64,000 bases of DNA from Pseudolabrys sp. (GTDB lineage: Bacteria; Pseudomonadota; Alphaproteobacteria; Rhizobiales; Xanthobacteraceae). Shown in pieces: positions 47,942 through 62,232 of this stretch; within the stretch, counting starts at the first letter, position 1, and every line of letters begins with the position of its first letter. The stretch lies in assembly GCA_017849615.1 (NCBI GenBank), contig JAFIGS010000007.1, positions 1 to 64,000 of the forward strand, given 5' to 3'. The notes beneath the pieces were generated by a model, which saw nothing but the letters and a program-made list of their open reading frames with translations, was not told the DNA's origin and made no database searches. Both the position numbers and the translations under genes were made by a program.

Positions 47942-48325
47942 TTATTTTGCCGATTCGACGGGCAGGCCATCTTCAACCCACGCCTTGAAGGCGCCCAGGT
48001 TGAAGACATTGGTGTAGCCCATATCCAGAAGCGCCTTGGCGCCGAGCGCCGAACGGCCGCCCGATGCGCAATACAAAATTATCGGCCGACTCTTGTCGAA
48101 GGACTCGTCGTAATATTGCGAGTCCGGATCGGCGCGAAATTCAAGCATTCCCCGCGACACGTTGATCGAACCAGCGATCTTTCCGGTCGTTTCGACCTCT
48201 GGCGCATCGCGCACATCGACGACCACCGCGCCGCGCTCGGCGATCAGGCTCCTGGCTTGCGACGGCGTAATTCGCTGCACTGCCGCATTTGCCGCTTCCA
48301 TCATCATCTTGACGCTCGTCGCCAT
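47942..48325 (-). CDS. Rhodanese-domain protein
   Basis: 127 residues, one rhodanese domain. The active-site cysteine is C86 in ILYCASGGRSALGAK, and the CDC25-like strand VVVDVRDAPEVETTGKI (about 34-50) precedes it. The motif at the active site (CASGGRS) is typical of sulfurtransferases moving sulfane sulfur. A short N-terminal extension of ~18 residues has no obvious signal peptide. GAGG 6 bases before ATG 48325 supports the start. It is divergent from the AraC regulator, with 160 bases between. Confidence 0.88.
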   Translation of the reverse strand: MATSVKMMMEAANAAVQRITPSQARSLIAERGAVVVDVRDAPEVETTGKIAGSINVSRGMLEFRADPDSQYYDESFDKSRPIILYCASGGRSALGAKALLDMGYTNVFNLGAFKAWVEDGLPVESAK

Positions 48326-48485
48326 AACATCCTCTACTTGTTTATTATTTTCAACAATTCCCACATCCCGGCCGGTTGGCGTGCGCCAGGATGCACGTTA
48401 TTAGATCGCATCGACGCGTAGACGAATGACCGGTCGGCCGGTTGAGTTGACCGTCCGTCCGAATTCACAGAAGGCGATTGTTGCA

Positions 48486-49445
48486 ATGGATGTGCTGTCG
48501 GACGTTCTTCGGTCTGTCCGGTTGACCGGCGGCGTATTTCTGGACGCCCGCTTCAGCGCGCCGTGGTGCGTATCGGCTCAGTTGCATGCGAGTGATTGCA
48601 AGGCATTCCTGGCGTCGCCCAAACAAGTCATCGCCTACCACGTCATCCTGGACGGCACGCTTGTCGTCGGCCTGGACGGCGAGCCCGCGGTCACCGTCGG
48701 ACCGGGCGAAATCGTGATTTTCCCCCGCAATGACAGCCACACTCTATCGAGCGGGCCCGGCCTGAAGCCGGTCAAGGCGGACGATCTCATCCAGATGTCA
48801 CCCGATGGCGGCCTCGCCCGCATCATTCACGGCGGCGGCGGCGCCGAGACGCGCATGGTGTGCGGCTTCCTCGGCTCAGACGACGGCTACAACCCCCTGA
48901 TAGCGGCCCTGCCTCGCGCGCTCACGCTCGACATCCGCAAGGGGACGTCGCGCGACTGGATCGAAACCTCGGTACGCTTTGCCGCCGAGGAACTGGCCGC
49001 GGGCCGGATGACCTCCATGGGAGTGATGTCACGCCTGTCCGAGACGCTGCTCGTCGAAGCGGTCCGCCAATATGCTTCGACACTAAGCGAGGCCGAGTCC
49101 GGCTGGCTGAAAGGGCTCAAGGATCCGCACATCGGGCGAGCGCTGGTCTTGCTGCACGATGATCTCACGGCCTCGTGGTCGACCGATATGCTGGCGCGCG
49201 AGATCGGGCTGTCGCGGAGCGCCTTCATCGAACGCTTCACCGAATTCGTCGGCCATCCACCCATCCGCTATCTGACGGCGCTGCGAATGCAACTCGCCAA
49301 ACAGCATCTGGCTGAAAGCGGGAGGCCCATCGGCCAGCTTGCGCACATTGTCGGCTACGAGTCGGAAGAGGCGTTCAGCCGTGCCTTCAAGCGCGAATTC
49401 GGCATCTCGCCCGGCGCCTGGCGCGACCGGCAATCTGCGCGCTAG
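48486..49445 (+). CDS. AraC-family transcriptional regulator with cupin_6 sensor
   Basis: 319 residues from ATG 48486 (a frame to 48426 is also open). The N-terminal ~180 residues are a cupin_6 / AraC-binding-like domain (LDGTLVVGLDGEPAVTVGPGE), and residues ~215-315 are the double HTH of AraC (DMLAREIGLSRSAFIERFTE, then LAHIVGYESEEAFSRAFKRE). The C-terminal region ends FGISPGAWRDR. It should bind a promoter in the 160-base gap shared with the divergent rhodanese gene and control the accessory minus-strand run. The effector is unknown; this subfamily often responds to small organic or stress signals. Confidence 0.88.
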   Translation: MDVLSDVLRSVRLTGGVFLDARFSAPWCVSAQLHASDCKAFLASPKQVIAYHVILDGTLVVGLDGEPAVTVGPGEIVIFPRNDSHTLSSGPGLKPVKADDLIQMSPDGGLARIIHGGGGAETRMVCGFLGSDDGYNPLIAALPRALTLDIRKGTSRDWIETSVRFAAEELAAGRMTSMGVMSRLSETLLVEAVRQYASTLSEAESGWLKGLKDPHIGRALVLLHDDLTASWSTDMLAREIGLSRSAFIERFTEFVGHPPIRYLTALRMQLAKQHLAESGRPIGQLAHIVGYESEEAFSRAFKREFGISPGAWRDRQSAR

Positions 49446-49484
49446 CCACACAGAAAACACGTGAGGTCTGCCTGACGCAATCGA

Positions 49485-49571
49485 TGGTGCGGACGGAGGG
49501 AATCGAACCCTCACGGGCTTACGCCCAACGGATTTTAAGTCCGGTCTGTCTACCAGTTCCAGCACGTCCGC
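49485..49571 (-). tRNA. tRNA-Leu, anticodon TAA
   Basis: The minus strand from 49571 reads GCGGACG (acceptor), a Leu-type D-arm CTGGAACTGGTAGACAG, an anticodon stem-loop GGACTTAAAATCC with TAA in the loop, a long variable arm (TGGGCGTAAGCCCGT) typical of Leu/Ser tRNAs, T-arm GAGGGTTCGATTCCCTC, CGTCCGC, discriminator A, and an encoded CCA. UUA codons are rare in this GC-rich genome, so this gene should serve few codons. The 173-codon minus-strand frame over it is a well-known translational shadow. Confidence 0.95.
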
Positions 49572-49677
49572 ATCGCTTCGCTGTCCGCCGACACGGCGGA
49601 TCATCTCCGGCGCAGCGGCGAACGGGAAGTTAGTTCTCTAATAACCCGGCCATGAACAGCGTAACCATCACCGCCCC

Positions 49678-50184
49678 TCAATCGCCGCCGGCACGGATCG
49701 GCGGCGCATAGGACAAAGCGGTGTCCCACGGAAAATAGATCCAGGTGTCCTGCGAGACTTCGGTGATGAAGGTATCGACCAGCGGCCGCCCCATCGGCTT
49801 GGCATAGACGGTGGCGAAATGCGCCGCCGGCAGTATCTCGCGCACCATGCGCGCCGTCTTGCCGGTGTCGACGAGGTCGTCGATGATCAGTACGCCCTTG
49901 CCCTGCGCGCGCATCGACGTGATCTCGGGGCCGACGCCCTTCATCACCTTGATGTCGCCCTGATTCTTGTAGTCGTGATAGCTGGCGATGCACACCGTCT
50001 CGATGATGCGCACATTCAATTCGCGCGCCACGATCGCCGCCGGCACCAGCCCGCCTCGCGTGATGCAAACGATCGCCTCGAACGGCCCGGCCTCGTGCAG
50101 CCGCCAGGTCAGAGCGCGGGTGTCGCGGTGAAACTGGTCCCAGGAGACGGGAAAGACTTTCTCGGGTCGCGGGAGTTCGCTCAT
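49678..50184 (-). CDS. gpt: Xanthine phosphoribosyltransferase (Gpt-like)
   Basis: 168 residues of the type I phosphoribosyltransferase fold. The PRPP-binding motif is [19 protein letters not shown] near residues 97-116 ([10 protein letters not shown]), and [20 protein letters not shown] is the N-terminal PPi-loop region. Gpt uses PRPP to salvage xanthine and guanine. The size and the [10 protein letters not shown] segment near the C-terminus match bacterial XGPRT (Gpt). Start ATG 50184. It lies downstream of the CinA-like gene on the same strand. Confidence 0.93.
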
Positions 50185-50223
50185 CGTGTTCTCTGATCGT
50201 TATGATGTCTCGGTCGCGCTCGT

Positions 50224-50979
50224 TCAGTTCGCGGCGATCTGCGCGCGCACCGTCACCAGCATGGCCTCGACCGCGGCCTTGGCTTCGTTGAGGCGCGCCG
50301 CGTCGCGCGAGCGCACCACGATATTCGTGTTCGGTCCGCCCTTCTCGTCCATGAACGGATAGCTGCCGATGATCGTGTCGGGATGAGCCTTGGCGATCAG
50401 GCCGAGCTCGGTGCCGACGTCGCCTTCGCGGGCGTCGGCGCGGATCGATTCCGACAGCATCTTGACGCCGGTCTTCAGCTTCGGCGCCACCTCGTCGAGC
50501 ATCGCCTGCATCACGGCCGGAATGCCGGCCATGGTGATGACATTGCCGATCCAGAAGCCCGGCGCGCCAGACACCTTGTTGGCGACCAGCGCGCCGCCCT
50601 TGGGAATGCGGGTCATGCGCATGCGCGCTTCGTTGAGCTCGCCGCCGACCTTGGCGACACGCTCTTTCATGATCGCCACGGCCTCGGGATGGAACTCGAG
50701 CGGAACGCCGAACGCCTTGGCGACACAGTCGGCGGTGATGTCGTCGTGGGTGGGCCCGATGCCGCCGGTGGTGAAGACGTAAGTGTAGGCGCTGCGCAGA
50801 GCGTTCAGCGCGGAGACGATGGCATGCTCGTCGTCGGACACGACCCGCACTTCCTTGAGGTCGATGCCAAGGGCGGTCATGTAATCGGCGATGTAGCCGA
50901 TGTTCTTGTCCTTGGTGCGGCCGGAGAGAATCTCGTCGCCGATCACCAGCACGGCCGCGGTGACGATCTCGGCGGTCAT
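50224..50979 (-). CDS. CinA N-terminal (molybdopterin-binding-like) family protein
   Basis: 251 residues, corresponding to the N-terminal MoCF-biosynthesis-like domain of CinA without the C-terminal NMN deamidase domain. The start AAVLVIGDEILSGRTKDKNI and VFTTGGIGPTHDDITADCV are diagnostic. In full-length CinA this domain is a pyrophosphatase for nucleotide-sugar-like substrates; here only the N-terminal family member is present, as in many alphaproteobacteria. ATG 50979 has a GGAGCCTCC context upstream. It probably shares a transcript with gpt 39 bases downstream. Confidence 0.88.
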   Translation of the reverse strand: MTAEIVTAAVLVIGDEILSGRTKDKNIGYIADYMTALGIDLKEVRVVSDDEHAIVSALNALRSAYTYVFTTGGIGPTHDDITADCVAKAFGVPLEFHPEAVAIMKERVAKVGGELNEARMRMTRIPKGGALVANKVSGAPGFWIGNVITMAGIPAVMQAMLDEVAPKLKTGVKMLSESIRADAREGDVGTELGLIAKAHPDTIIGSYPFMDEKGGPNTNIVVRSRDAARLNEAKAAVEAMLVTVRAQIAAN

Positions 50980-51116
50980 GGAGGCTCCCTGAAGGCGCGC
51001 ACCGATGGGCCGATGCCGCGATGCCTGCGGTTAAAGCACGAACCGCGCGACGCCGGAAGCGGCGGGCCCGCTTGTGCACCGCCGCTGTGGACGCCGCGGC
51101 GCCGGGATCGTCCGGT

Positions 51117-51350
51117 TCAGAGCTTCCTGGCGGGCTGAAGAACGAAAGCATGCGCGCCGGCGACGATGCCGTTCGATACCCGGCCGGACGCGATCGATGC
51201 CACAGCGCGCGGAACACCCCGGTGACATTGCTGTACTGCGCCGTCCAGGCCGTCACCGAGTTGCAGCGCCTTCGCAGTCGACCGTGAAGCCGAGCGCGCG
51301 ACCGGCCCCGCCGCCCCGAGCGCCATGCCCGCAATGCTCTTTGCGACCAT
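51117..51350 (-). CDS. Possible small protein, well-placed ribosome site
   Basis: A 77-residue frame (MVAKSIAGMALGAAGPVARS at the start). AAGGAGG lies 5 bases before ATG 51350, the best ribosome site in this 0.65-kb region, and third codon positions are mostly G/C. There is a weakly hydrophobic Ala/Gly-rich start but no clear signal peptide or domain. It opposes the ATP-grasp gene and would be transcribed from the AT-rich area at 51405-51445. I do not recognise it, and it could be fortuitous. Confidence 0.4.
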   Translation of the reverse strand: MVAKSIAGMALGAAGPVARSASRSTAKALQLGDGLDGAVQQCHRGVPRAVASIASGRVSNGIVAGAHAFVLQPARKL

Positions 51351-51652
51351 CCATCCCTCCTTGCACACCGCGACGCGGCATCGGGCCGCGAGTCTCGGCC
51401 AAATTCACAATTATCTTCCGTACAATAGTAAGGGCGGTCAAAATTTACGGCCGTACCGGCCAAGCCGATGGCGCCGGTTGCGGCCGCGTGCCACGCTCAA
51501 AAATAAAGGCGCGCCCGCGTGCTGATCATAATGCTCAAACGTTGGGCATCGGCGCGGGGCCGGACGGTGTCCGAATCCGGGTTTGCCGGTTGGCGCGAAC
51601 TTTGCTCCTAAAAGGGGCACGATACGGTTGGTGGGAAGAAGCTGGGGGACGT
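51351..51652. other. Upstream region of the Anbu cluster
   Basis: About 300 bases between the small minus-strand frame and the ATP-grasp gene. It holds a relatively AT-rich stretch at 51405-51445 (cacaattatcttccgtacaa, then tagtaagggcggtc) that is the most likely promoter region. The 3' end (gggggacgt) gives the ribosome site for ATG 51653. No CtrA box, riboswitch or terminator was found here. Confidence 0.5.
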
Positions 51653-53074
51653 ATGGGTTTGGCCTTCGACGAGATGAGGGGCCATGACGGCAAGGCGGTC
51701 CGCCCGGCCTATGGCGAGCTCGACCGCTGGCTCAAGGAAGTGCCGGCGGACGTCCTCGACTATCGCCGCCGCGAGGCCGAGCTGATTTTCCGCCGCATCG
51801 GCATCACCTTCGCCGTCTACGGCGAGGCCGACGCCACCGAGCGCCTGATCCCCTTCGACGTCATCCCGCGCATCATGTCCGGCGGCGAGTGGCGGCAACT
51901 GGAAAAGGGCCTGACCCAGCGCGTCAACGCCCTCAACATGTTCATCAAGGACATCTACAGCGGCCGCGAGGTGCTGCGCGCCGGCGTCGTGCCGGAGGAC
52001 ATGATCTTCCGCAACCCGGCCTTCCGCCCGGAGATGAACGGCCAGAGCGTGCCGCACGATATCTATGTCCACATCGCCGGCATCGACATCATACGCGTCG
52101 ACGCCGACACCTTCTATGTGCTCGAGGACAATGCGCGCACGCCCTCCGGCGTCTCCTACATGCTGGAGAACCGCGAGATCATGATGCGGCTGTTCCCGGA
52201 ACTGTTTTCGCGTCACCGCATCGCGCCGGTCGAGAACTATCCCGACGAACTTCTGGCCTCGCTCAAGTCGGTGGCGCCGCTGTCGACGCCGAAGGAACCG
52301 AACGTTGTGCTGCTGACGCCCGGCGTCTATAACTCCGCCTATTACGAGCATTCGTTCCTTGCCGACAAGCTCGGCGTCGAGCTGGTCGAAGGCCGCGATC
52401 TCTTCGTCAAGGACGAGGTCGTCTACATGCGCACGACGCAGGGGCCGCAGCGCGTCGACGTCATCTATCGCCGCGTCGACGACGACTTCATCGATCCCCT
52501 CGCCTTCCGCCCCGACTCGATCCTCGGCGTGCCTGGCCTGATGTCGGCCTATACCGCCGGCAACGTCACGCTCGCCAACGCGGTCGGCACCGGCATCGCC
52601 GACGACAAGGCGATCTATTCCTTCATGCCGGAGATCGTGAAGTTCTATCTCGGCGAAGAACCGCTCCTGAAAAACGTGCCGACCTGGCGCTGCCGCGAAG
52701 CGGAACACCTTACTTATGTGCTCGATCACCTGCCCGAACTGGTGGTCAAGGAGGTGCACGGTTCCGGCGGCTACGGCATGCTGATCGGCCCGTCGGCCAG
52801 CAAGATCGCCATCGAGCAGTTCCGCGCCAAGCTCAAGGCCGCGCCGGACAATTTCATCGCCCAGCCGACCTTGGCGCTGTCGACCTCGCCGACCTGCGTG
52901 GAAAGCGGCGTCGCACCGCGCCATGTCGATCTGCGGCCCTTCGTGCTGACCGGCCGCAAGGGCGTGCGCATCGTGCCCGGCGGGCTCACCCGCGTCGCGC
53001 TGAAAGAAGGCTCGCTGGTTGTCAATTCGAGCCAGGGCGGCGGCACCAAGGATACGTGGGTGCTGGATGGTTGA
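51653..53074 (+). CDS. Circularly permuted ATP-grasp protein of the Anbu cluster
   Basis: 473 residues of the DUF404/DUF407 circularly permuted ATP-grasp type. Family blocks: IMSGGEWRQLEKGLTQRVNA near residue 75, VPHDIYVHIAGIDIIRVD, YVLEDNARTPSGVSYMLENR, VLLTPGVYNSAYYEHSFLAD, and VVKEVHGSGGYGMLIGP toward the ATP site. In related systems these proteins are predicted amide- or peptide-bond-forming enzymes. ATG 51653 follows a GGGGGA ribosome site. It is the first gene of the four-gene Anbu cluster. Its reaction is unproven. Confidence 0.9.
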   Translation: MGLAFDEMRGHDGKAVRPAYGELDRWLKEVPADVLDYRRREAELIFRRIGITFAVYGEADATERLIPFDVIPRIMSGGEWRQLEKGLTQRVNALNMFIKDIYSGREVLRAGVVPEDMIFRNPAFRPEMNGQSVPHDIYVHIAGIDIIRVDADTFYVLEDNARTPSGVSYMLENREIMMRLFPELFSRHRIAPVENYPDELLASLKSVAPLSTPKEPNVVLLTPGVYNSAYYEHSFLADKLGVELVEGRDLFVKDEVVYMRTTQGPQRVDVIYRRVDDDFIDPLAFRPDSILGVPGLMSAYTAGNVTLANAVGTGIADDKAIYSFMPEIVKFYLGEEPLLKNVPTWRCREAEHLTYVLDHLPELVVKEVHGSGGYGMLIGPSASKIAIEQFRAKLKAAPDNFIAQPTLALSTSPTCVESGVAPRHVDLRPFVLTGRKGVRIVPGGLTRVALKEGSLVVNSSQGGGTKDTWVLDG

Positions 53075-53100
53075 GATGACGCAGACGCGAAGCACCGTCG

Positions 53101-53220
53101 CTCCCCTCCCTCCGTTCGCGAAGCGAATGGTGGGGAGGGGTTGGGGGTGGGGGGCCAATCGTCAACGTGACAAGAGCCCCCCACCCCTGACCCCTCCCCG
53201 CCGCTTCGCGGGGGGAGGGG
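53101..53220. repeat. Large intergenic inverted repeat
   Basis: About 120 bases. A G-rich arm (tggtggggaggggttggggg, 53129-53148, continuing tggggggc) is mirrored by a C-rich arm (gccccccacccctgacccct, 53176-53195, continuing ccccg), and small inner stems (ttcgcgaagcgaa; ccgcttcgcgg) sit in each half. It resembles the palindromic intergenic repeats common in Bradyrhizobium relatives. It lies inside the Anbu cluster between the ATP-grasp and alpha-E genes, where it could act as a processing or attenuation site. Confidence 0.75.
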
Positions 53221-53252
53221 AAAGCGCCCTACCCGCTGCAATGGAAGCATAA

Positions 53253-54194
53253 ATGCTCTCACGCACTGCCGATAACCTGTTCTGGCTTTCGCGCTATGTC
53301 GAACGCGCCGAGTATCTGGCGCGCATTCTCGACGCCACGCAGCGACTCTCCGCTCTGCCGCTCGCCTATGTCGGCACCGGCAACGAATGGGAGTCCGCCG
53401 TGCTCACGGCCGGTTGCGCCGGCCCGTTCTTCAAGCAATACGAAACCGCCACCGAGGAAAACGTCACCGACTTCCTCGCCTTCTCCCCCGCCAACCCGTC
53501 CTCGATCCGCAACTGCTTCGAGATGGCGCGCGGCAATGCGCGCGCCGTGCGCACCGCGCTGACCGGCGAGATGTGGGACGCCATCAACGGCACATGGCTC
53601 GAGCTCAAGCGTTTCGGCAACGGCCCTTCGTCGCGCGAGGAGACCTCGCGCTTCCTGCGCTGGGTGCAGGAGAGCTCGCTGCGCTACGACGGCTCGGCCT
53701 ACCGCACCATGCTGCGCAGCGACGCCTACTGGTTCTCCCGCCTCGGCGTCTACATGGAGCGCGCCGACAACACCGCGCGCATCCTCGACGTCAAGTATCA
53801 TCTGCTACTGCCCGAGCATGAGCGGGTCGGCGGCCCGCTCGATTATTTCCAGTGGGCCGCGATCCTGCGCTCGGTGTCGGCGCTCACCGCCTATCACTGG
53901 GTTTACCGCGAGAGCCTCAAGCCGTGGCTGGTCGCCGACCTCCTGATCCTCAAGGAGGAGATGCCGCGCTCGCTCGCCTCCTGCTACGAGGCTATCGTGC
54001 GCAACCTCGACGCCATCGGCTCGACCTATGGCCGCCAGGGCGCGGCGCAGCGCCATGCCCGCGGCATCCGCACCCGCCTGCAGAACAGCAAGATGGACGG
54101 TATTTTCCAGCGCGGCCTGCACGAATTCATCGGCGAATTCATCACTGAAAACAATCGCTTGGGCGTCAACATCACCGAGCAATTCCTGCAGTGA
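53253..54194 (+). CDS. Alpha-E domain protein of the Anbu cluster
   Basis: 313 residues, all-helical, matching the alpha-E family. The opening LSRTADNLFWLSRYVERAEYLARIL is diagnostic, and YWFSRLGVYMERADNTARILD repeats the same type of helix around residue 160, so the fold contains two related helical halves. The family has no known catalytic motif; it is found almost only with the ATP-grasp, transglutaminase and Anbu genes. It may scaffold or present a substrate. ATG 53253 lies after the repeat at 53101-53220 and 178 bases from the ATP-grasp stop. Confidence 0.9.
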   Translation: MLSRTADNLFWLSRYVERAEYLARILDATQRLSALPLAYVGTGNEWESAVLTAGCAGPFFKQYETATEENVTDFLAFSPANPSSIRNCFEMARGNARAVRTALTGEMWDAINGTWLELKRFGNGPSSREETSRFLRWVQESSLRYDGSAYRTMLRSDAYWFSRLGVYMERADNTARILDVKYHLLLPEHERVGGPLDYFQWAAILRSVSALTAYHWVYRESLKPWLVADLLILKEEMPRSLASCYEAIVRNLDAIGSTYGRQGAAQRHARGIRTRLQNSKMDGIFQRGLHEFIGEFITENNRLGVNITEQFLQ

Positions 54195-54262
54195 TGAAGG
54201 CCTTGCATCCCGCCCCGCCGTGCTAGGGTAGCGCCACGAACACCCGCGTCACGCCAGGCTTC

Positions 54263-55117
54263 ATGCGCATCCGGATCGCCCACACCACCACCTACACCTA
54301 CGATGCGCCGCCCAAGAGCGTGACGCAGGTGCTGCGCCTGACGCCGCGCAACCACGACGGCCAGTACGTGCTGAACTGGCGCATCGACCTGTCGCGCGAC
54401 AGCCAGTTGCACCAGCGCGAAGGCGCCTTCGGCAATATCAGCCACGTCTTCACCGCCGAGGGCCCGTTCAACGAGCTGACCGTATCGGTCGAGGGCGAGG
54501 TCGATACCCAGGATACGAGCGGCGTCATCCGCGGCACCGTCGAGCGCTTTCCGCCCGCGCTGTATTTGCGCGACACGCAGCTCACCGAAGCCGATGCCGC
54601 CATTATCGCGTTCGCCGAGGGCATTCGCGCCGAGGCCGGCGCCGATAGGCTCACCGTGCTGCACGCCTTGCTCACCGCGCTCAACGAGGGCTTCGCCTTC
54701 GACACCGAACCGACCCATGTCGGCACCACGGCGGCGGAAGCCTTCAAGCTCAAGCGCGGCGTCTGCCAGGACGGCACGCACGTCTTCATCGCCGCCGCGC
54801 GCCATCTCGGCATCCCGGCGCGCTATGTCGGCGGGCATTATTGCCGCACCGATGAAGCCGCGCCGCAGGAAGCCGGCCACGCCTGGGCCGAAGCCTATAT
54901 CGACAAGCTCGGCTGGGTCGGCTTCGATCCGACGCATGGCCTGTCGCCGACGGAAGCGCATGTGCGCGTCGCCGTCGGCCTCGATTATCTCGGCGCCGCG
55001 CCGGTGCGCGGCTCGCGCGTCGGCGGCGGCAACGAGACGATGTCGGTCGCGGTCAAGGTTACGCCGGCGACCTGGCAGGCGCAGGGCGGCTCATGGCAGA
55101 CGCAGTCGCAGAAGTGA
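54263..55117 (+). CDS. Transglutaminase-like protein of the Anbu cluster
   Basis: 284 residues. The N-terminal ~110 residues are the bacterial transglutaminase N domain (IAHTTTYTYDAPPKSVTQVL), followed by a transglutaminase-like catalytic core. The predicted catalytic Cys is in KRGVCQDGTHVFIAAARHLG (about residue 172), His in EAGHAWAEAYI and Asp in VGFDPTHG. These proteins are usually thought to hydrolyse or transfer acyl groups from peptide or isopeptide bonds. It follows the alpha-E gene by 68 bases and precedes the Anbu gene by 68 bases. No signal peptide is visible. Confidence 0.92.
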   Translation: MRIRIAHTTTYTYDAPPKSVTQVLRLTPRNHDGQYVLNWRIDLSRDSQLHQREGAFGNISHVFTAEGPFNELTVSVEGEVDTQDTSGVIRGTVERFPPALYLRDTQLTEADAAIIAFAEGIRAEAGADRLTVLHALLTALNEGFAFDTEPTHVGTTAAEAFKLKRGVCQDGTHVFIAAARHLGIPARYVGGHYCRTDEAAPQEAGHAWAEAYIDKLGWVGFDPTHGLSPTEAHVRVAVGLDYLGAAPVRGSRVGGGNETMSVAVKVTPATWQAQGGSWQTQSQK

Positions 55118-55185
55118 CGGCGTTGCATTCATCGGCCGGATCCGAAAGCCCGATCTGAAATAACCTGTACGAGAAGAACCGATCC

Positions 55186-55932
55186 ATGACCTATTGCTGC
55201 GGAATTCTGGTGCGCGACGGCCTCGTGATGATTGCCGACACGCGCACCAATGCCGGCCTCGACAACGTGTCCACCTTCCGCAAGCTGCACGTCTACAGCA
55301 CGCCCGGCGAACGCATCATGGCGATCGCCTCCTCCGGCAACCTGTCGCTGTCGCAGACCGTGCGCTCGATGCTCACCGAAGGCATCGAAAACCCGGAGAC
55401 GGGCGAACTCGAAACGCTGATGAACGCGCCGACCATGTTCAAGGCGGCGCAGCGCATCGGCAAGGCGGTGCGTCTGGTGCAGGGCATCGACGGCAAGGCG
55501 CTGGCCGAAGCGTCCATCGACCACGACGTCGCCTTCCTGTTCGGCGGCCAGGTCAAGGACGGCAAGCTGCGCCTGTTCATGATCTACTCGGCCGGCAACT
55601 TCATCGAATGCACCACCGACACGCCCTACTTGCAGATCGGCGAACACAAATACGGCAAGCCGGTGCTCGACCGCGCCATCTCCTACGACACCGACGTCTA
55701 TGACGCGCTCAAGATCGGCCTGATCTCGATGGACTCGACCATGCGCTCCAATCTCGGCGTCGGCCTGCCGATCGACCTGATGGTGGCGCGGCGCGACGAC
55801 CTCAACCCGGAGGTCAATTACCGCATCGAGCCGGGCGAGCCCTATTTCCAGGATCTGCGCGAGCAGTGGTCCGGCGCGCTGCGCGCCGCCCATATCGCCA
55901 TCCCCCGCCCGCCCTACGGCAGCGGACGGTAG
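55186..55932 (+). CDS. Anbu (ancestral beta-subunit) proteasome-like protein
   Basis: 248 residues of the Ntn-hydrolase proteasome/HslV superfamily, Anbu branch. The N-terminal nucleophile position is Thr2 (MTYCCGI), and the catalytic partners are D18 (IADTRTNAG) and K33 (FRKLH), as in HslV. Other Anbu features include MAIASSGNLSLSQTVRSML and ISMDSTMRSNLGVGLPID. Anbu proteins form a ring- or spiral-like assembly in the structures I recall, but their substrate is unknown. It is the last gene of the four-gene cluster, all on the plus strand, so concerted expression is likely. ATG 55186 is certain since T2 must be exposed after Met removal. Confidence 0.93.
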   Translation: MTYCCGILVRDGLVMIADTRTNAGLDNVSTFRKLHVYSTPGERIMAIASSGNLSLSQTVRSMLTEGIENPETGELETLMNAPTMFKAAQRIGKAVRLVQGIDGKALAEASIDHDVAFLFGGQVKDGKLRLFMIYSAGNFIECTTDTPYLQIGEHKYGKPVLDRAISYDTDVYDALKIGLISMDSTMRSNLGVGLPIDLMVARRDDLNPEVNYRIEPGEPYFQDLREQWSGALRAAHIAIPRPPYGSGR

Positions 55933-55971
55933 GCACCGATCGCCGGCGAACCATGCTCCGCCGGTCGCGCC

Positions 55972-55986
55972 TTAACCTCCGGTTAA
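55972..55986 (+). promoter_or_regulatory. Perfect CtrA box upstream of the GGDEF-EAL gene
   Basis: TTAA-cctccgg-TTAA matches the CtrA consensus TTAA-N7-TTAA exactly. It lies 55 bases before the GTG start at 56042 and 40 bases after the Anbu stop codon, so CtrA probably controls the c-di-GMP enzyme rather than Anbu. Confidence 0.8.
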
Positions 55987-56041
55987 CGACTTTGTCCCAA
56001 ATTGCCGTGGTATTGTTTTCCGCCGGATCGAAATTGGCCCG

Positions 56042-58378
56042 GTGAAAGCGATTGGCAAGCTTTGCCCTTTACCGTCCGGCCGGATTGTCCAATCGATAGG
56101 ACGCTTTAGGGGAAGCTCCTTGCTGTCGCCGGCTCATTCGAGAACCCCGGACGAGTTGCAATACTCCAATTGGGACCGCGCGCGGTTGAGCGTCGTGGTG
56201 CCGGTCGGCGTCATCGTCGCCGTGGCCATCGTCTGCATCGTCGTCGCCGTGCTCTCCTCGGCCCAGCGCGCCGACGAAGTCGCGGTAGCGCAGGAGCGGC
56301 AGCTCCTGTCCAACGCGCTGCAGCATGTCGGCCGCCGCGTGCTGCGCGAGACCGAAAGCGTCGCCTCCTCGCAAGGCGCCTATGATCACATCCGCCAGGA
56401 GTTCCATCCGGCATGGGTCGAGGAGCAGGCCGGCGCCTGGCTCGCCACCTATTTCAAGCACGACCTGGTTCTGATCTTCGACAAGACAAACCGGCCGATC
56501 TATTCGCGGCTCGGGCGCTTCGCCGCCGATCCCAATGCGCTCGACTTCCGCCCGCCGGAAATCATGGCGGTGCTCGACACCATCCGCGGCCGCCACGGCG
56601 ACAAGCCGGGTGCGCGGCCGGCTGCCGGCACCGGGGCGCAGCCGAATGTCCTCGAGTTCAGGGAGGTCATGGGCCGGCCGGCGACCGTCGCCGCCGTTGC
56701 CATCGGGGACGACCGCGTCGCCGCCGCCTATGACACCGAGGCGCCGGTTCTGGTCTCGGTCAAATTCCTCGGGCCCGAAGTCATCAACAACATCAGTTCG
56801 CGGCTCGGCCTCAACCATCTGCGTATCGTCGAGGGCGATGCCGCGACGCCCGAAGGCGACTATCTCTACCGACTCGCTGCCCCGGACGGCTCGCGCATCA
56901 TCGACATTGCCTGGACGCCGAAGCAGCCGGGGGCCGACATCGTCCGCAATGTCGTGCCCTTCATCGCCGTGGCGCTCGCCGGTTTCGCCCTGCTCGGCGC
57001 GTTCGTGCTGCGCTATATGCGCCGCACCGCGGTCGCCATCACCGCCGGCGAAAACCGTTTGCGTCATCTGGCGCTGCACGATCCGCTCTGCGGCTTGCCG
57101 AACCGCATCTTCTTCTCGGAGCGCCTCGAAGCCGTGATCGAGGAAGTCGCCGCCACCGGAATGCCGGCGGCGCTGTTCTATATCGACCTCGACCACTTCA
57201 AGGACGTCAATGACACGCTCGGCCATCCGGTCGGCGACGAACTGATCCGCAACGTCACCTTGCGCCTGTCACATGCCGTGCGCGGCGGCGATCTGGTGGC
57301 CCGACTCGGCGGCGACGAATTCGCGGTCATCTCCTCGATCGGCGGCGACAGCGCCATGCTGATGTCGCTCGGCCAGCGTCTGATCAGCACCATCTGCGCG
57401 CCCTACGGCATCGCCGGCCAGAACATCGTCATCGGCGCGTCGATCGGCATCGCCGTCATCGACCGCAATTGCGCCGGCGCGCCGGACGTCATGCGCTATG
57501 CCGACATGGCGCTGTATCGCGCCAAGAACGAAGGCCGCAACCGCGCCTGCATTTACGACAACGCGATGGATGCCGACCTGTCGAACCGCAAGCTGCTCGA
57601 GGGCGACCTGCGCGAGGCGATCCAGACCAGCCAGCTCCGCCTGCTCTACCAGCCGATCGTCGACAAGAGCGGCAACACCATGCTGGGCGTCGAGGCGCTG
57701 TGCCGCTGGACGCATCCGACGCGCGGCGAAATCTCGCCGGCCGAATTCATCCCGCTCGCCGAGAACTCCGGGCTCATCGTCGAACTGGGCGCCTGGGTGC
57801 TGCGCAAGGCGATGATGGACGGCCTCGCCTGGCCGGATCTCACCGTCGCGGTCAACGTCTCGCCGCTGCAATTCCGCCGGGCCGATTTCGCCGAACTCGT
57901 CGAGCGCACCCTCTCCGAAACCGGCTTCGACCCGGCCCGCCTCGAGCTCGAAATCACCGAGAGCGTGCTGATCGGCAATTTCGACACCGCCGAAGCCAGC
58001 ATGCTGCGCCTCAAAGCGCTCGGCGTGCAGCTCGCGCTCGACGACTTCGGCACCGGCTATTCGTCGCTGCTCTATCTGCGCCGCTTCCCGTTCAACAAGC
58101 TCAAGATCGACCGCAGCTTCGTCCTGTCGATCGAGAAGGCCGCCGACGCCGCCGCCATCGTCCACGCCGTGGTGTCGCTCGGCCGCGGCCTCGGCATGAA
58201 GGTCACCGCCGAAGGCGTCGAGACCGCCGACCAGCAACTCTTCCTGCGCGCCGCCGGCGTCCACCAGATGCAGGGCTACCGCTTCGGCCGCGCCATGGCG
58301 CCGGAGAAGATCGCGGCCCGGCTGAATTCGCCCGAGCTCTTCCAGATGCCGGACGAGCGGACCTCGCTTGCGGGCTGA
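56042..58378 (+). CDS. CHASE4-GGDEF-EAL c-di-GMP enzyme
   Basis: 778 residues starting at GTG 56042. TM1 (about 49-70) and TM2 (about 305-325) flank a periplasmic CHASE4-like sensor. The GGDEF domain (about 345-505) has the intact signature ARLGGDEFAVI, so diguanylate cyclase activity is predicted. The EAL domain (about 520-770) has LGVEALCRWTHP (EALxR) and LALDDFGTGYSSL, with the conserved metal-binding Glu and Asp residues, so phosphodiesterase activity is also possible. A bifunctional membrane sensor is likely. The CtrA box 55 bases upstream links it to cell-cycle control. Confidence 0.93.
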   Translation: MKAIGKLCPLPSGRIVQSIGRFRGSSLLSPAHSRTPDELQYSNWDRARLSVVVPVGVIVAVAIVCIVVAVLSSAQRADEVAVAQERQLLSNALQHVGRRVLRETESVASSQGAYDHIRQEFHPAWVEEQAGAWLATYFKHDLVLIFDKTNRPIYSRLGRFAADPNALDFRPPEIMAVLDTIRGRHGDKPGARPAAGTGAQPNVLEFREVMGRPATVAAVAIGDDRVAAAYDTEAPVLVSVKFLGPEVINNISSRLGLNHLRIVEGDAATPEGDYLYRLAAPDGSRIIDIAWTPKQPGADIVRNVVPFIAVALAGFALLGAFVLRYMRRTAVAITAGENRLRHLALHDPLCGLPNRIFFSERLEAVIEEVAATGMPAALFYIDLDHFKDVNDTLGHPVGDELIRNVTLRLSHAVRGGDLVARLGGDEFAVISSIGGDSAMLMSLGQRLISTICAPYGIAGQNIVIGASIGIAVIDRNCAGAPDVMRYADMALYRAKNEGRNRACIYDNAMDADLSNRKLLEGDLREAIQTSQLRLLYQPIVDKSGNTMLGVEALCRWTHPTRGEISPAEFIPLAENSGLIVELGAWVLRKAMMDGLAWPDLTVAVNVSPLQFRRADFAELVERTLSETGFDPARLELEITESVLIGNFDTAEASMLRLKALGVQLALDDFGTGYSSLLYLRRFPFNKLKIDRSFVLSIEKAADAAAIVHAVVSLGRGLGMKVTAEGVETADQQLFLRAAGVHQMQGYRFGRAMAPEKIAARLNSPELFQMPDERTSLAG

Positions 58379-58501
58379 GGCCCGCCGCCTAATTCACTTC
58401 GCCGCAACGCATAACCTGCGCGCGCCGCGCCCCCTGTGGCGTCGATGGTCTTTGTGCTAGGCAGGCTCCACAAGAAACGCACCCTTGAGGGAGGATTGCC
58501 T

Positions 58502-59260
58502 ATGACTGCCAAGATCGCGCTGGTTACCGGCGCCGGGACCGGAGTCGGCCGCGCCGTGGCCATTGCCTTGGCCAAGGCCGGCTACAATGTCGTGCTCGCG
58601 GGCCGGCGCAAGGAGCCGCTCGATGCGGTCGGCGCCGAGATCAACGCCATCGGCCAGCAGGCCCTGTCCGTGCCGACCGACGTGTCGCAGCGCCAGTCCA
58701 TCCTCGACCTGTTCGCCAAGACCAAGGCCAGCTTCGGCCGCCTCGACGTGCTGTTCAACAATGCCGGCGTCGGCGCGCCGCCGGTGCCGCTCGAGGACCT
58801 GCCCTTCGAGACCTGGCAGAACGTCGTCAATACCAACCTGACCGGCATGTTCCTGTGCACCCAGGAAGCCATCAAGATCATGAAGAGCCAGAACCCGCAG
58901 GGCGGCCGCATCGTCAACAACGGCTCGATCTCCGCGCACGCGCCGCGGCCGTTCTCGGTGGCCTATACCGCGACCAAGCACGCGGTGACCGGCCTCACCA
59001 AATCGACCTCGCTCGACACCCGCAAGTACAACATCTGCTGCGGCCAGGTGGACATCGGCAACGCCATCACGCCGATGACCGCGCGCATGGTCGAAGGCGA
59101 AGGCGTGCCGCAGGCGAACGGCACCATGATGGTCGAGCCGCGCATGAACGCCGATAATGTCGGCGCCGCCGTCGTCTACATGGCGAGCCTGCCGCTCGAC
59201 GCCAACGTGCTGTTCATGACGGTGATGGCGAACACCATGCCGTTCGTCGGCCGGGGGTGA
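58502..59260 (+). CDS. Short-chain dehydrogenase/reductase
   Basis: 252 residues of the classical SDR family. The cofactor motif is [17 protein letters not shown] (TGxxxGxG), the conserved NNAGVG lies near residue 87, and the catalytic residues are Ser in [13 protein letters not shown], Tyr and Lys in VAYTATKHA. It should be a NAD(P)-dependent alcohol/ketone oxidoreductase. ATG 58502 is preceded by GGGAGG (58489-58494 region). It converges on the receiver-domain gene, with 13 bases between. Substrate unknown. Confidence 0.88.
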
Positions 59261-59273
59261 TCGGGGGCGCCGC

Positions 59274-59726
59274 TCAGACGGCGGCGGCGCGGGCCATCAC
59301 CGACAGCGCCCGCGTCGTCGCCGCATGCTGCCGCAGCCGGCCGAACGCCTCGCGCAAGGCCTTGAGATCGAGCGGCTTGGCGAACACCCTGGCGTCGATC
59401 TGCAGCGACTTCGACATCGTGGTCGTCGCTTCGAGCAGATACTCGTCGGCGCCGCTGATTACCAGCACCGGCAAATGATAACCGGTCCTGGCGACGAGCG
59501 GCAGCAGCAGCGCGCCGCTGCGGTCGCCGAGGCCGAGATCGAGCGTCACGCAATCGAAGGAGCGCGCCTCGAGCAACTGCGCCGCCTCTTCGAAGCGCGC
59601 GGCCATCGTCACCTTGAAGCCGGCCTGCTGGGCGAGCCGGCCGATGATGGTGCGCTGGATCGGATCGTCGTCCACCACCAGAAGATCGAACTCGGCCGGG
59701 GCGATATCGGACATTTGCTCAGACAT
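59274..59726 (-). CDS. Stand-alone receiver domain (response regulator)
   Basis: 150 residues, one receiver domain. The acidic pair is in LLVVDDDPIQRTI, the phosphoacceptor is in CVTLDLGLGD (about residue 65), and the conserved lysine is in VFAKPLD (about 117). No output domain is attached; the C-terminus is short and helical. ATG 59726 overlaps the stop region of the upstream hybrid kinase by 8 bases (59719-59726), so translation is coupled. It is a likely phosphate acceptor of that kinase. Confidence 0.9.
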   Translation of the reverse strand: MSEQMSDIAPAEFDLLVVDDDPIQRTIIGRLAQQAGFKVTMAARFEEAAQLLEARSFDCVTLDLGLGDRSGALLLPLVARTGYHLPVLVISGADEYLLEATTTMSKSLQIDARVFAKPLDLKALREAFGRLRQHAATTRALSVMARAAAV

Positions 59727-62232
59727 GAGCGACTCCTGTGGTGTGCTGAGGTGACGCCGCAAGCGCGGCGCGGAACGCCGCGGCGAGCGCGTCGATTCGG
59801 GTGATGAGCGGCGCGCGATCGAGCGTCATGCAATCGCGCTCGATGGTTTTCGCCAGCGCCGACAGCGTCAGAAAGCCGATCGAGGCGGCCGAACTCTTGA
59901 TCGCATGCGCCTCGATGCGCACCGCGGCGGCATCGCCGGCGGCGCCGGCGCGCTGCATCAGCGCGAGGCGCTGCGGCATGTCGGTCATGAACGTGCCCAC
60001 CACATCGGCGACGCCGTCCTCGCCAATGGCCTCGCGCAGTTCGCCATACACGGCCTCGTCGAAGGCCGGTGGCTCGGCGTTGTCGGGCGCCAGAGCGGGC
60101 GCATCGACGACCGGCGCTGCCTGGGTGAGATAGAGATCGAGCTTGCCGGCAAGCCCGGCGCGCGTCACCGGCTTGGCGAGGAAATCGTCCATGCCGGAGT
60201 CGAGACAGGCGGTGCGGTCGGCGGCGCTGGCATTGGCCGTCAGCGCGATGATGTGCGCCGCGTTGAACGGCGCCGGCAGCTTGCGGATCGTCCGCGTCGC
60301 CGACGGCCCATCGACGCCCGGCATCATCACGTCCATCAGCACGACGTCGTAGCGGGTCGCGGCGCAGGCGGCGACGGCTTCGGCGCCGTCATTGACGATG
60401 TCGGCGCTGTAGCCCAGCCGCGCCAGCAGCGCGATGACGACCTGCTGGTTGGTCTTGTTGTCCTCGGCGACCAGAATGCGGATGGCGCGCCGCGCCGCCG
60501 CCGGCTTCGCCGCGGCCTGATCGACCGTGGCCGGCGCGGCGTTGTCGGTCCGCGCGTCGATGGTGAAGCGGAACGTCGTGCCCTTGCCGACTTCGCTCTG
60601 CACCGTAATCAGCCCGCCCATCAGCGCCACCAGGCGGCGGCTGATGGCGAGACCGAGGCCGGTGCCGCCGAAACGCCGCGCGATCGAGGAGTCGAGCTGC
60701 GAGAACTCCTTGAACAGAAGCGGGATGCCGTCCTGCGGAATGCCGATGCCGGTGTCGCTGACGGCGAAAGCGAGCCGTACATGCCCGGCCAGCATCGGCG
60801 TTGGATCGACGCTCACCGCGACCGTCACCGAGCCCTCATGCGTGAACTTGAGCCCGTTGCCGACGAGGTTGAACAGCACCTGCCGCAGCCGCGCCGGATC
60901 GCCGACGATGCGCCTGGGCACGCCGGGCGCGATCCTGGTGGCGAGCGCCAGGCCCTTCTCCGCCGCCGCAGCCGAAAGAATCTCGGCATTGGTCTTCACC
61001 AGATCGTCGAGGTCGAAGGCGACCTGCTCGAGCTCGACACGATCGGCCTCGATCTTGGAAAAATCGAGCACGTCGTTGATCAACTGCAGCAGGTGCTCGG
61101 CCGACTTGCGCAAAGTCTGGGCGAAGCCGAGTTGCTCGGCGCTCAGCCCGCTTTCCATGAGAACTTCGGACATGCCGACAACGCCGTTCATCGGCGTGCG
61201 GATCTCGTGGCTCATCATCGCCAGGAATTCGCTGCGCGCGCGGGTGCCGGCTTCGGCGGCGTCGCGGGCCTGGGTGAGCGTGCGCTGATAGCGCCACATC
61301 AGGAGGGTGATGCCGGCGAGCCAGAGCGTCAGCGCCGCCGACACGATCTGCCCCTCGTCCTGGTTGGCCTCGACCGTATCGAACACCTCTTCCTTGGCGA
61401 GGCCGACGGTCACCACCAGCGGCAGGTCACGCACCTTGCGATAGGCGAATAGCCGATCGACGCCATCGAGCTTGCTGCGGCCGTCATAGCGACCCGTGTC
61501 CGCAGTTGGCAGAAAGCGGAACAACTCGCTGTTGGACAATGACATCCCCACGTAATCGGACTCGAGGGCCGCGCCGCGCGCGCGCACGATGCCGTCGGTG
61601 CCAACCACCGTCACGGCGCCCTGCCGTCCGACGTCGATCGAGCCGTAGAAGCGCGACAGATAGTCCGGGCTGATCGAGGCGACGGCGACGCCGCCGAAGC
61701 TGCCGTCCGGCATGGTGATGCGGCGGGTAAGCTGGATCGACCATTTGCTGCTGACGCGGCCGAGCACCGGCTTGCTGATGAAGAGTTCGTCGCTGTCGCG
61801 CGTGACGTGAACGCGGAAGTGTTCACGGTCGCTCAGATCGACGCCCGCCTGCGAGCCGGGGATGCTGCTGGCGACCATGCGGCCGTCCTTGCCGATGATG
61901 ACGACCTGGAAATTGAAGCCGGTGAGAAACTCGCTGTCCTCCGACCACAGCGAAATGTCGAAGTGACGCGGGTCGCGGGCATATTTGTCGCGCACATAGA
62001 GCAGCGTCTGATCGACGGCGCGGATCGAGCGCAGGAGCTGTTCCTCGAAAGCCGCCGCGAGATTCGACGCGCTCTTGTAGGCCGAGCGCTCGGTCTCGAC
62101 GCGCGCGCCGTGCGCGAAATAGAACGTCGCCGCCCAGATCAGCGCGATCGCCGACAGACCGAGCAGCAGACTGGCGTAGCTGCTGAACCGGTAGAACCAG
62201 CGTTGTTTAGCGACGGCATTAAGATACGGCAC
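59719..62232 (-). CDS. Membrane hybrid histidine kinase with receiver and Hpt domains
   Basis: 837 residues. TM1 (about 19-39) and TM2 (about 293-312) flank a periplasmic PDC/dCache-like sensor. HisKA follows with H-box MMSHEIRTPMNGVVGM (phospho-His near residue 342), then HATPase with the N-box LRQVLFNLVGNGLKF, DTGIGIP and GTGLGLAIS. A receiver domain (ILVAEDNKTNQQ, DVVLMDVMMPGVDG) lies near 585-700 and a C-terminal Hpt (HAIKSSAASIG) at about 740-837. It is a full phosphorelay kinase. Its 3' end overlaps the receiver-only gene by 8 bases, so the two act together. Signal unknown. Confidence 0.94.
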   Translation of the reverse strand: MPYLNAVAKQRWFYRFSSYASLLLGLSAIALIWAATFYFAHGARVETERSAYKSASNLAAAFEEQLLRSIRAVDQTLLYVRDKYARDPRHFDISLWSEDSEFLTGFNFQVVIIGKDGRMVASSIPGSQAGVDLSDREHFRVHVTRDSDELFISKPVLGRVSSKWSIQLTRRITMPDGSFGGVAVASISPDYLSRFYGSIDVGRQGAVTVVGTDGIVRARGAALESDYVGMSLSNSELFRFLPTADTGRYDGRSKLDGVDRLFAYRKVRDLPLVVTVGLAKEEVFDTVEANQDEGQIVSAALTLWLAGITLLMWRYQRTLTQARDAAEAGTRARSEFLAMMSHEIRTPMNGVVGMSEVLMESGLSAEQLGFAQTLRKSAEHLLQLINDVLDFSKIEADRVELEQVAFDLDDLVKTNAEILSAAAAEKGLALATRIAPGVPRRIVGDPARLRQVLFNLVGNGLKFTHEGSVTVAVSVDPTPMLAGHVRLAFAVSDTGIGIPQDGIPLLFKEFSQLDSSIARRFGGTGLGLAISRRLVALMGGLITVQSEVGKGTTFRFTIDARTDNAAPATVDQAAAKPAAARRAIRILVAEDNKTNQQVVIALLARLGYSADIVNDGAEAVAACAATRYDVVLMDVMMPGVDGPSATRTIRKLPAPFNAAHIIALTANASAADRTACLDSGMDDFLAKPVTRAGLAGKLDLYLTQAAPVVDAPALAPDNAEPPAFDEAVYGELREAIGEDGVADVVGTFMTDMPQRLALMQRAGAAGDAAAVRIEAHAIKSSAASIGFLTLSALAKTIERDCMTLDRAPLITRIDALAAAFRAALAASPQHTTGVAHV

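Follow-up and report, generated by a model that had tools for sequence, protein, structure and literature searches.

The locus and its gene families

The window analysed here, a stretch of 64,000 nt from Pseudolabrys sp. (contig JAFIGS010000007.1, positions 1 to 64,000), carries four genes in a row for a circularly permuted ATP-grasp protein, an Alpha-E protein, a transglutaminase-fold (TG) protein and the proteasome-like protein Anbu. The coordinates of the open reading frames (ORFs) place all four on the + strand, separated by exactly 178, 68 and 68 nt, as a preliminary description of the sequence had stated, and database searches agreed with its family assignments. Gene 1 (51653..53074, 473 aa) matches the Pfam families CP_ATPgrasp_2 (E 2e-168) and CP_ATPgrasp_1 (E 8e-160), and its solved relative is 3n6x (E 2e-206), deposited as a putative glutathionylspermidine synthase. 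Gene 2 (53253..54194, 313 aa) is assigned to Alpha-E (E 1e-93). Gene 3 (54263..55117, 284 aa) matches Transglut_core (E 5e-22) and Bact_transglu_N (E 1e-21), and its relationship to 3isr, E 2e-8 by sequence, is clearer by predicted fold (E 1e-21). The Cys-His-Asp triad of the TG protein is present (Cys168, His206, Asp222), and the protein ends in a glutamine-rich tail (residues 269–284, 55067..55114, + strand) that is predicted to be disordered. Gene 4 (55186..55932, 248 aa) passes the cut-off of the Pfam family Proteasome only narrowly (E 9e-6); its only matches in the Protein Data Bank (PDB) at E 0.001 are five Anbu sequences (5loy, 5nyj, 5nyf, 5nyw and 5lox; E 3e-79 to 6e-63). A sigma-54-type (−24/−12) promoter motif with one mismatch to the consensus lies 62 nt upstream of the gene 1 start codon (51591..51606, + strand).

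The locus is a complete, ordinary copy of the known four-gene Anbu operon, which has already been published (PMC5666114, PMC6376114). Among the matches listed, the nearest named relatives have Alpha-E proteins of 86–90% identity. A scan of the four proteins with NCBIfam gave no model above cut-off. PADLOC gave no match to any of them at E 0.001, and an anti-phage defence system was rejected for that reason. Rfam, run over 48000–60000, returned a tRNA at 49488–49571 and nothing else. Its value lies in what comparison shows about the partner genes, chiefly the tail of the TG protein and its seemingly dispensable cysteine.

Conservation of gene order and of the Anbu active site

Three sets of loci were compared. 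A search of 60 genomes of relatives found Anbu in 39, including the genome of the window, and all of the other 38 Anbu loci were examined. The phylum-wide set comprised 80 hand-picked loci, drawn from 99 Anbu-positive genomes and in most cases with a single genome for each genus, and the third set held the best 80 named loci listed in a search with Alpha-E. Three loci occur in two sets each (L059=L179, L063=L164 and L064=L162), and counts over all sets are therefore too high by at most three. Gene order, a comparison that the preliminary description had called for, is widely kept: ATP-grasp, Alpha-E, TG and Anbu follow one another intact on one strand in 28 of the 38 relatives' loci and in 44 of the 72 Anbu loci of the phylum-wide set. 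Seven of the remaining 10 relatives' loci are interrupted by contig ends; in the other three the TG gene is frame-broken (L068), ∼6.4 kb separates TG from Anbu (L047) or Anbu is inverted relative to the other three genes (L062). Among the named loci, 62 are collinear and two more have a split Alpha-E frame, with Anbu present in 65. In the seven loci of one family (f55: L122, L132, L141, L144, L145, L146 and L158) Anbu stands without the other three genes in the compared stretch; these genomes hold the partners elsewhere, the ATP-grasp/Alpha-E pair in all seven.

The preliminary description had staked its reading beforehand on the conservation of Thr2, Asp18 and Lys33 of Anbu, which proved to be nearly complete. 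Thr2 is found in 175 of 177 sequences including that of the window (one has Ser and one is truncated), and Asp18 and Lys33 are found in all 177.

The ATP-grasp/Alpha-E pair is the core of the system

Presence of the genes was surveyed in 249 Pseudomonadota genomes, with a threshold of E 1e-20 for TG and with 14 control genomes from outside the phylum. Alpha-E occurs in 145 of the 249 genomes and ATP-grasp in the identical 145, no genome having one of the pair alone. Relatedness inflates the p-values of co-occurrence, and the weight rests on this exceptionless pairing. Anbu is found in 99 genomes, 97 of which carry the pair, and TG in 137, of which 135 have Alpha-E. Since 48 of the 145 pair-bearing genomes are without Anbu, the pair is not there solely to feed Anbu. 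The core of the system is the ATP-grasp/Alpha-E pair and not Anbu, after which the preliminary description had named the cluster.

The two genomes with Anbu and without the pair (G152 and G305, loci L133 and L134) belong to one genus, and their Anbu gene is distant from any such cluster; two frames near it resemble, by eye, response regulators. The ATP-grasp and Alpha-E sequences are found together in single frames in five loci (L100, L119, L120, L121 and L161), where the fused frame adjoins a separate pair, with Anbu in the same locus except in L100. The genome of the window also has a second, divergent ligase locus (L052, contig C20, about 212800–219600). There Alpha-E lies within an open frame of 842 residues, next to ATP-grasp sequence, a TG that has no glutamine-rich tail and a 1117-residue TG-like frame.

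The TG protein: a conserved glutamine tail and a recurrently lost cysteine

The tail seen in gene 3 is conserved in most TG proteins of these operons. TGs scoring below 200 bits (below 150 bits in the Anbu-negative set) were excluded from the tail counts, and the comparison included 24 paralogous TGs (22 hand-picked and two from the genome of the window) and 18 trios, also hand-picked, from Anbu-negative genomes. Of the phylum-wide TGs, 42 of 47 have a glutamine at one or other of their last two positions, as do 33 of 36 from relatives and 67 of 76 from named loci, compared with none of the 24 paralogous TGs and 118 of 1673 neighbouring genes. The operon partners in the phylum-wide set rarely share this ending: it is seen in 2 of the 64 ATP-grasps, in 10 of the 64 Alpha-Es and in 9 of the 72 Anbus. 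At least three glutamines fall within the last 12 residues in 29 of the 47 phylum-wide TGs, against 24 of the 1673 other genes. An effect of composition was rejected on these comparisons with paralogous TGs, with the other operon proteins and with neighbouring genes. Among the excluded lower-scoring TGs, 18 that were inspected, mostly from loci of the second kind, have glutamine in the last two residues in three cases and three glutamines in the last 12 in none. The tail persists in 15 of the 18 trios from Anbu-negative genomes, and so is not there for Anbu alone; docking of the tail as a peptide on Anbu only was set aside for that reason. No TG of this type with a glutamine tail was listed in a search of the literature.

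The catalytic cysteine is replaced in 21 of 177 TGs (17 times by P, A, G or V and four times by S) and intact in 156, whereas the histidine is replaced in four and the aspartate in none. Thus the preliminary description of the TG as an acyl-bond-cleaving candidate agrees with the copy in the window, which has the cysteine, but is not reliable for the family. At least two glutamines within the last 15 residues are retained by 13 of the 21 Cys-less TGs. A quick tree of the ATP-grasps of 138 loci, among them 16 Cys-less ones, requires at least eight changes in the state of the cysteine, and five independent contrasts sit on well-supported branches. The ratio dN/dS is 0.22–0.36 for Cys-less TGs (six pairs from two lineages) and 0.11–0.42 for 11 intact pairs, which indicates that the Cys-less proteins remain under purifying selection. 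Assays relying on transglutaminase activity may pursue a dispensable step. One operon with a Cys-less TG has a tandem pair of Anbu genes (L194, 10866–12395).

Alpha-E is an internal duplication

Alignment of the two halves of Alpha-E shows an internal duplication: residues 1–102 align to residues 153–258 with an E value of 3.9e-13 (hhalign) and 26% identity. A reversed C-terminal half gave E 0.83 and five column-permuted C-terminal halves gave E 0.04–0.45, while the halves still align (E 1.4e-5) when the first helix is removed. The AlphaFold2 model, built from 59 sequences, is confident (pLDDT 91.4, pTM 0.90), and by eye both halves show a similar succession of helices. Searching the model with Foldseek against 350,542 PDB chains gave nothing significant; there were 191 weak matches, the best with E 0.7, and TM-scores did not exceed 0.26 in the best 50 of the 191, which we take as no match. 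By sequence, no relative was found among solved structures (best E 0.15). Two residues stand out in their conservation: E169 is kept in all 95 sequences compared, and R18 in all but two of them (93). We found no mention of the duplication in literature listings or in a word search of PMC6376114; earlier notice of it is possible, for example in Iyer 2009.

Promoter motif and nitrogen control

Sites were scored against a sigma-54 consensus, allowing up to two mismatches and counting those within 300 nt of a gene. The motif at 51591..51606, with its single mismatch, is one of two such matches on either strand of the 64 kb. Upstream of gene 1, sites with up to two mismatches occur in 76 of 172 loci (21 of 30, 16 of 64 and 39 of 78 across the three sets), against 0.1, 0.8 and 1.0 loci expected from mononucleotide shuffling. 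Elsewhere in the operon they are rare, preceding Alpha-E in none of 174 cases, TG in one of 156 and Anbu in two of 173. No sigma-70 promoter was found in 51300–56300. The motif lies before gene 1, and in four loci of the same genus genes 1 and 2 are separated by a gap of 1–2 nt. In the mechanism proposed below, the four genes would be made as one unit from the sigma-54-type promoter, probably under nitrogen limitation.

We take COG3484 to be the Anbu COG. A proteasome-type protease of COG3484 belongs to a predicted sigma-54 regulon in alpha-, beta- and gamma-Proteobacteria (PMC12316311). In Burkholderia cenocepacia, a cluster of DUF404/407, DUF403, TG and a large TG shows NtrC-dependent expression (PMC5491218), and in nitrogen-limited wild-type Pseudomonas putida the genes PP_2686–2688 are up 11- to 15-fold (PMC7801951). 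For Anbu itself, PMC5666114 and PMC6376114 cite an increase in P. putida under nitrogen limitation. The link of the system to nitrogen is well supported, and is already in print.

A proposed mechanism and its alternatives

These patterns lead us to favour a tentative proposal, possible rather than probable on the comparative evidence, that the ATP-grasp and Alpha-E proteins form an amide ligase which acts on or through the tail of the TG protein, with Anbu as an optional peptidase. ATP-grasp enzymes make amide bonds via acyl phosphates, and the obligate pair would use ATP to form such a bond. Release of phosphate from ATP has been recorded for the ATP-grasp of the Anbu operon (PMC6376114). A TG that is kept without its cysteine but with a glutamine-enriched tail resembles a binding partner or acceptor and not a needed catalyst, and the TG-fold protein would accordingly act mainly through its flexible C-terminal tail. 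If the TG is indeed a partner or acceptor, an order of steps can be suggested in which the pair acts on the tail, the Cys-His-Asp site, where still present, edits or reverses the bond, and Anbu, in some systems only, uses its N-terminal threonine to trim or break down the modified product. Gene content and order, the catalytic residues, the promoter motif, the strict pairing, the tail and the recurrent cysteine loss are observed, whereas the bond, the tail as its site, the sequence of steps and the single transcript are inferred. A more specific version, which we consider unlikely as a whole, makes the TG not primarily an enzyme but a built-in substrate or carrier whose disordered tail is modified by the ligase in nitrogen limitation, by Pup- or RimK-like chemistry on a dedicated protein, with the cysteine as an optional editor and Anbu as an optional trimmer, and Alpha-E as a new duplicated helical fold forming the second subunit of the ligase.

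A number of results weigh against the proposal. Fuchs et al. judged a role in peptide synthesis less likely (PMC5666114). Pull-downs after co-expression found no specific complex, and the ATP-grasp was not stimulated by glutamine or glutamate (PMC6376114). Together with the lack of peptidase activity reported for Anbu in the same paper, these findings do not permit a confident mechanistic claim. In the survey, TG was not found at E 1e-20 in 10 of the 145 pair-bearing genomes, and no clear tail is seen in eight of the 21 Cys-less and 13 of the 156 intact TGs. A correlated loss of cysteine and tail, suggested by a raw Fisher p of 8e-4, is not claimed, as the independent pairs on the tree do not uphold it. 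Just 16 of the 64 phylum-wide loci have a sigma-54-type site with up to two mismatches, and canonical NtrC palindromes are not enriched upstream (three of 76 loci, 2.4 expected). In P. putida, the rise of PP_2686–2688 is just as strong when rpoN is mutated (14- to 20-fold), and PP_2685 shows no induction in the wild type (1.1-fold) (PMC7801951), which speaks against dependence on sigma-54 in that species. Overall, the motif and one species favour such dependence and a second species contradicts it.

The Cys, His and Asp residues, intact in 156 of 177 TGs, would be in keeping with a product that was instead a small-molecule peptide or amide metabolite, joined by the pair, cleaved or acyl-transferred by the TG and hydrolysed by Anbu, with the tail as no more than a flexible element of localisation or solubility. 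The closest structure to gene 1 is 3n6x, with its deposited name. Glutathionylspermidine synthetase couples a synthetase to a papain-like amidase, which ATP-grasp and TG would parallel. A metabolite has been proposed in print (Iyer 2009, as cited in PMC5666114), and in marine metagenomes the abundances of DUF403/404/407 track those of urea-metabolism domains (PMC3597751), which would suit it as well. However, if the TG were an essential catalyst and its tail inert, one would not expect the cysteine to be lost at least eight times or the tail to be retained by 13 of the 21 Cys-less TGs, and we regard this explanation as somewhat unlikely. The preliminary description had suggested a system that makes and later removes a peptide or tag; the data fit this idea, which had been put forward in print before (by Iyer 2009 among others, as PMC5666114 and PMC6376114 cite).

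Anbu has also been seen as the main actor, a protease for bulk or damaged proteins, with the other genes tagging proteins for it or supplying nitrogen from glutamine side chains in starvation. Anbu binds proteasome inhibitors, and this is the reading preferred by Fuchs et al. (PMC5666114); the nitrogen link and the conserved catalytic residues are in keeping with it, as in part is the one genus (two genomes) that has Anbu without the pair. Against it stand the ligase pairs in 48 of 145 genomes that are without Anbu, the failure to detect peptidase activity (PMC6376114) and the fact that no AAA+ partner of Anbu is known (PMC5666114), and we consider it quite unlikely. That Anbu does not hydrolyse standard peptides (PMC6376114) could alternatively mean that it is a transpeptidase or ligase working on the TG tail, like the related connectase, a member of the proteasome family that is a protein ligase (PMC8665760). 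Retention of the tail in 15 of 18 trios from Anbu-negative genomes speaks against such a role, which seems very improbable; nor was a recognition motif found, no search aimed at one having been made. The comparison as a whole shifts attention from Anbu to the ATP-grasp/Alpha-E pair as the centre, and the substrate of Anbu might best be sought at the C-terminal glutamine tail of the TG, under nitrogen limitation and in ATP-grasp or Alpha-E mutants.

Relation to known systems

No essential difference was seen from the Anbu operons of Yersinia bercovieri and Pseudomonas aeruginosa (PMC6376114, PMC5666114), which share the families, their order, the catalytic residues and the nitrogen link; a feature local to the genus of the window is the large palindrome in the first gap. 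The available parts of the two papers make no mention of the tail, the loss of the TG cysteine or the Alpha-E duplication. In both, Anbu is discussed as an ancestor or intermediate of proteasome evolution, its substrate and function being unreported. The B. cenocepacia cluster (PMC5491218) and P. putida PP_2685–2688 (PMC7801951) have, by domain names, the same ligase core under nitrogen control, the identities of PP_2685, 2687 and 2688 being assumed. In B. cenocepacia the core goes together with a large TG protein, and Anbu is not named among the members of the cluster (PMC5491218); the second ligase locus of the window's own genome is a locus of that sort.

Two more distant likenesses concern chemistry and arrangement. 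RimK-type ATP-grasp enzymes carry out amide-bond chemistry on a protein C-terminus, a reaction that is here proposed, but unlike the ATP-grasp of the window they are not circularly permuted and have no Alpha-E. The Pup-proteasome system has an ATP-dependent ligase, a protein with a glutamine-rich end and a proteasome-family hydrolase, and is similar to the Anbu system by analogy only in these three respects; it differs in the fold of its ligase, in Pup being a separate small protein and in having an unfoldase. The four-gene cluster holds neither a Pup-like small protein nor an AAA+ unfoldase, no dedicated search of the genome having been made for them.

The palindrome between genes 1 and 2

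The large palindromic repeat that separates genes 1 and 2 (arms within 53102..53221), which the preliminary description had singled out as unusual, is real, the 178 nt gap folding with a z score of −9.5 against 200 shuffles. The family to which it belongs is dispersed in the genome of the window (26 alignments at about 14 places, including itself), and since sister species have different repeats at this position and some relatives have none, the palindrome is not a part that the system needs. A role of the hairpin as a terminator was rejected, as a terminator search listed no such site in the gap.

Among the same-genus loci in which both genes are complete, 16 of 21 have a gap of more than 100 nt, mostly with a hairpin, while in L066 and L071–L073 the gap is just 1–2 nt. 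Comparison of sequences and folds by eye distinguishes at least four families of hairpin. Nine of the 16 long gaps hold one of the three strongest-folding 160 nt windows of their own locus; the gaps of L060, L061 and L063 rank 6th to 9th, and those of L054, L058, L059 and L067 are unremarkable. The gap sequences of two relatives are likewise scattered through the respective genomes (63 and 62 alignments). Across L053–L075 the gap resembles a recurrent landing site, with different palindromic repeats at the same spot in different species, and a gap of 1–2 nt in others.

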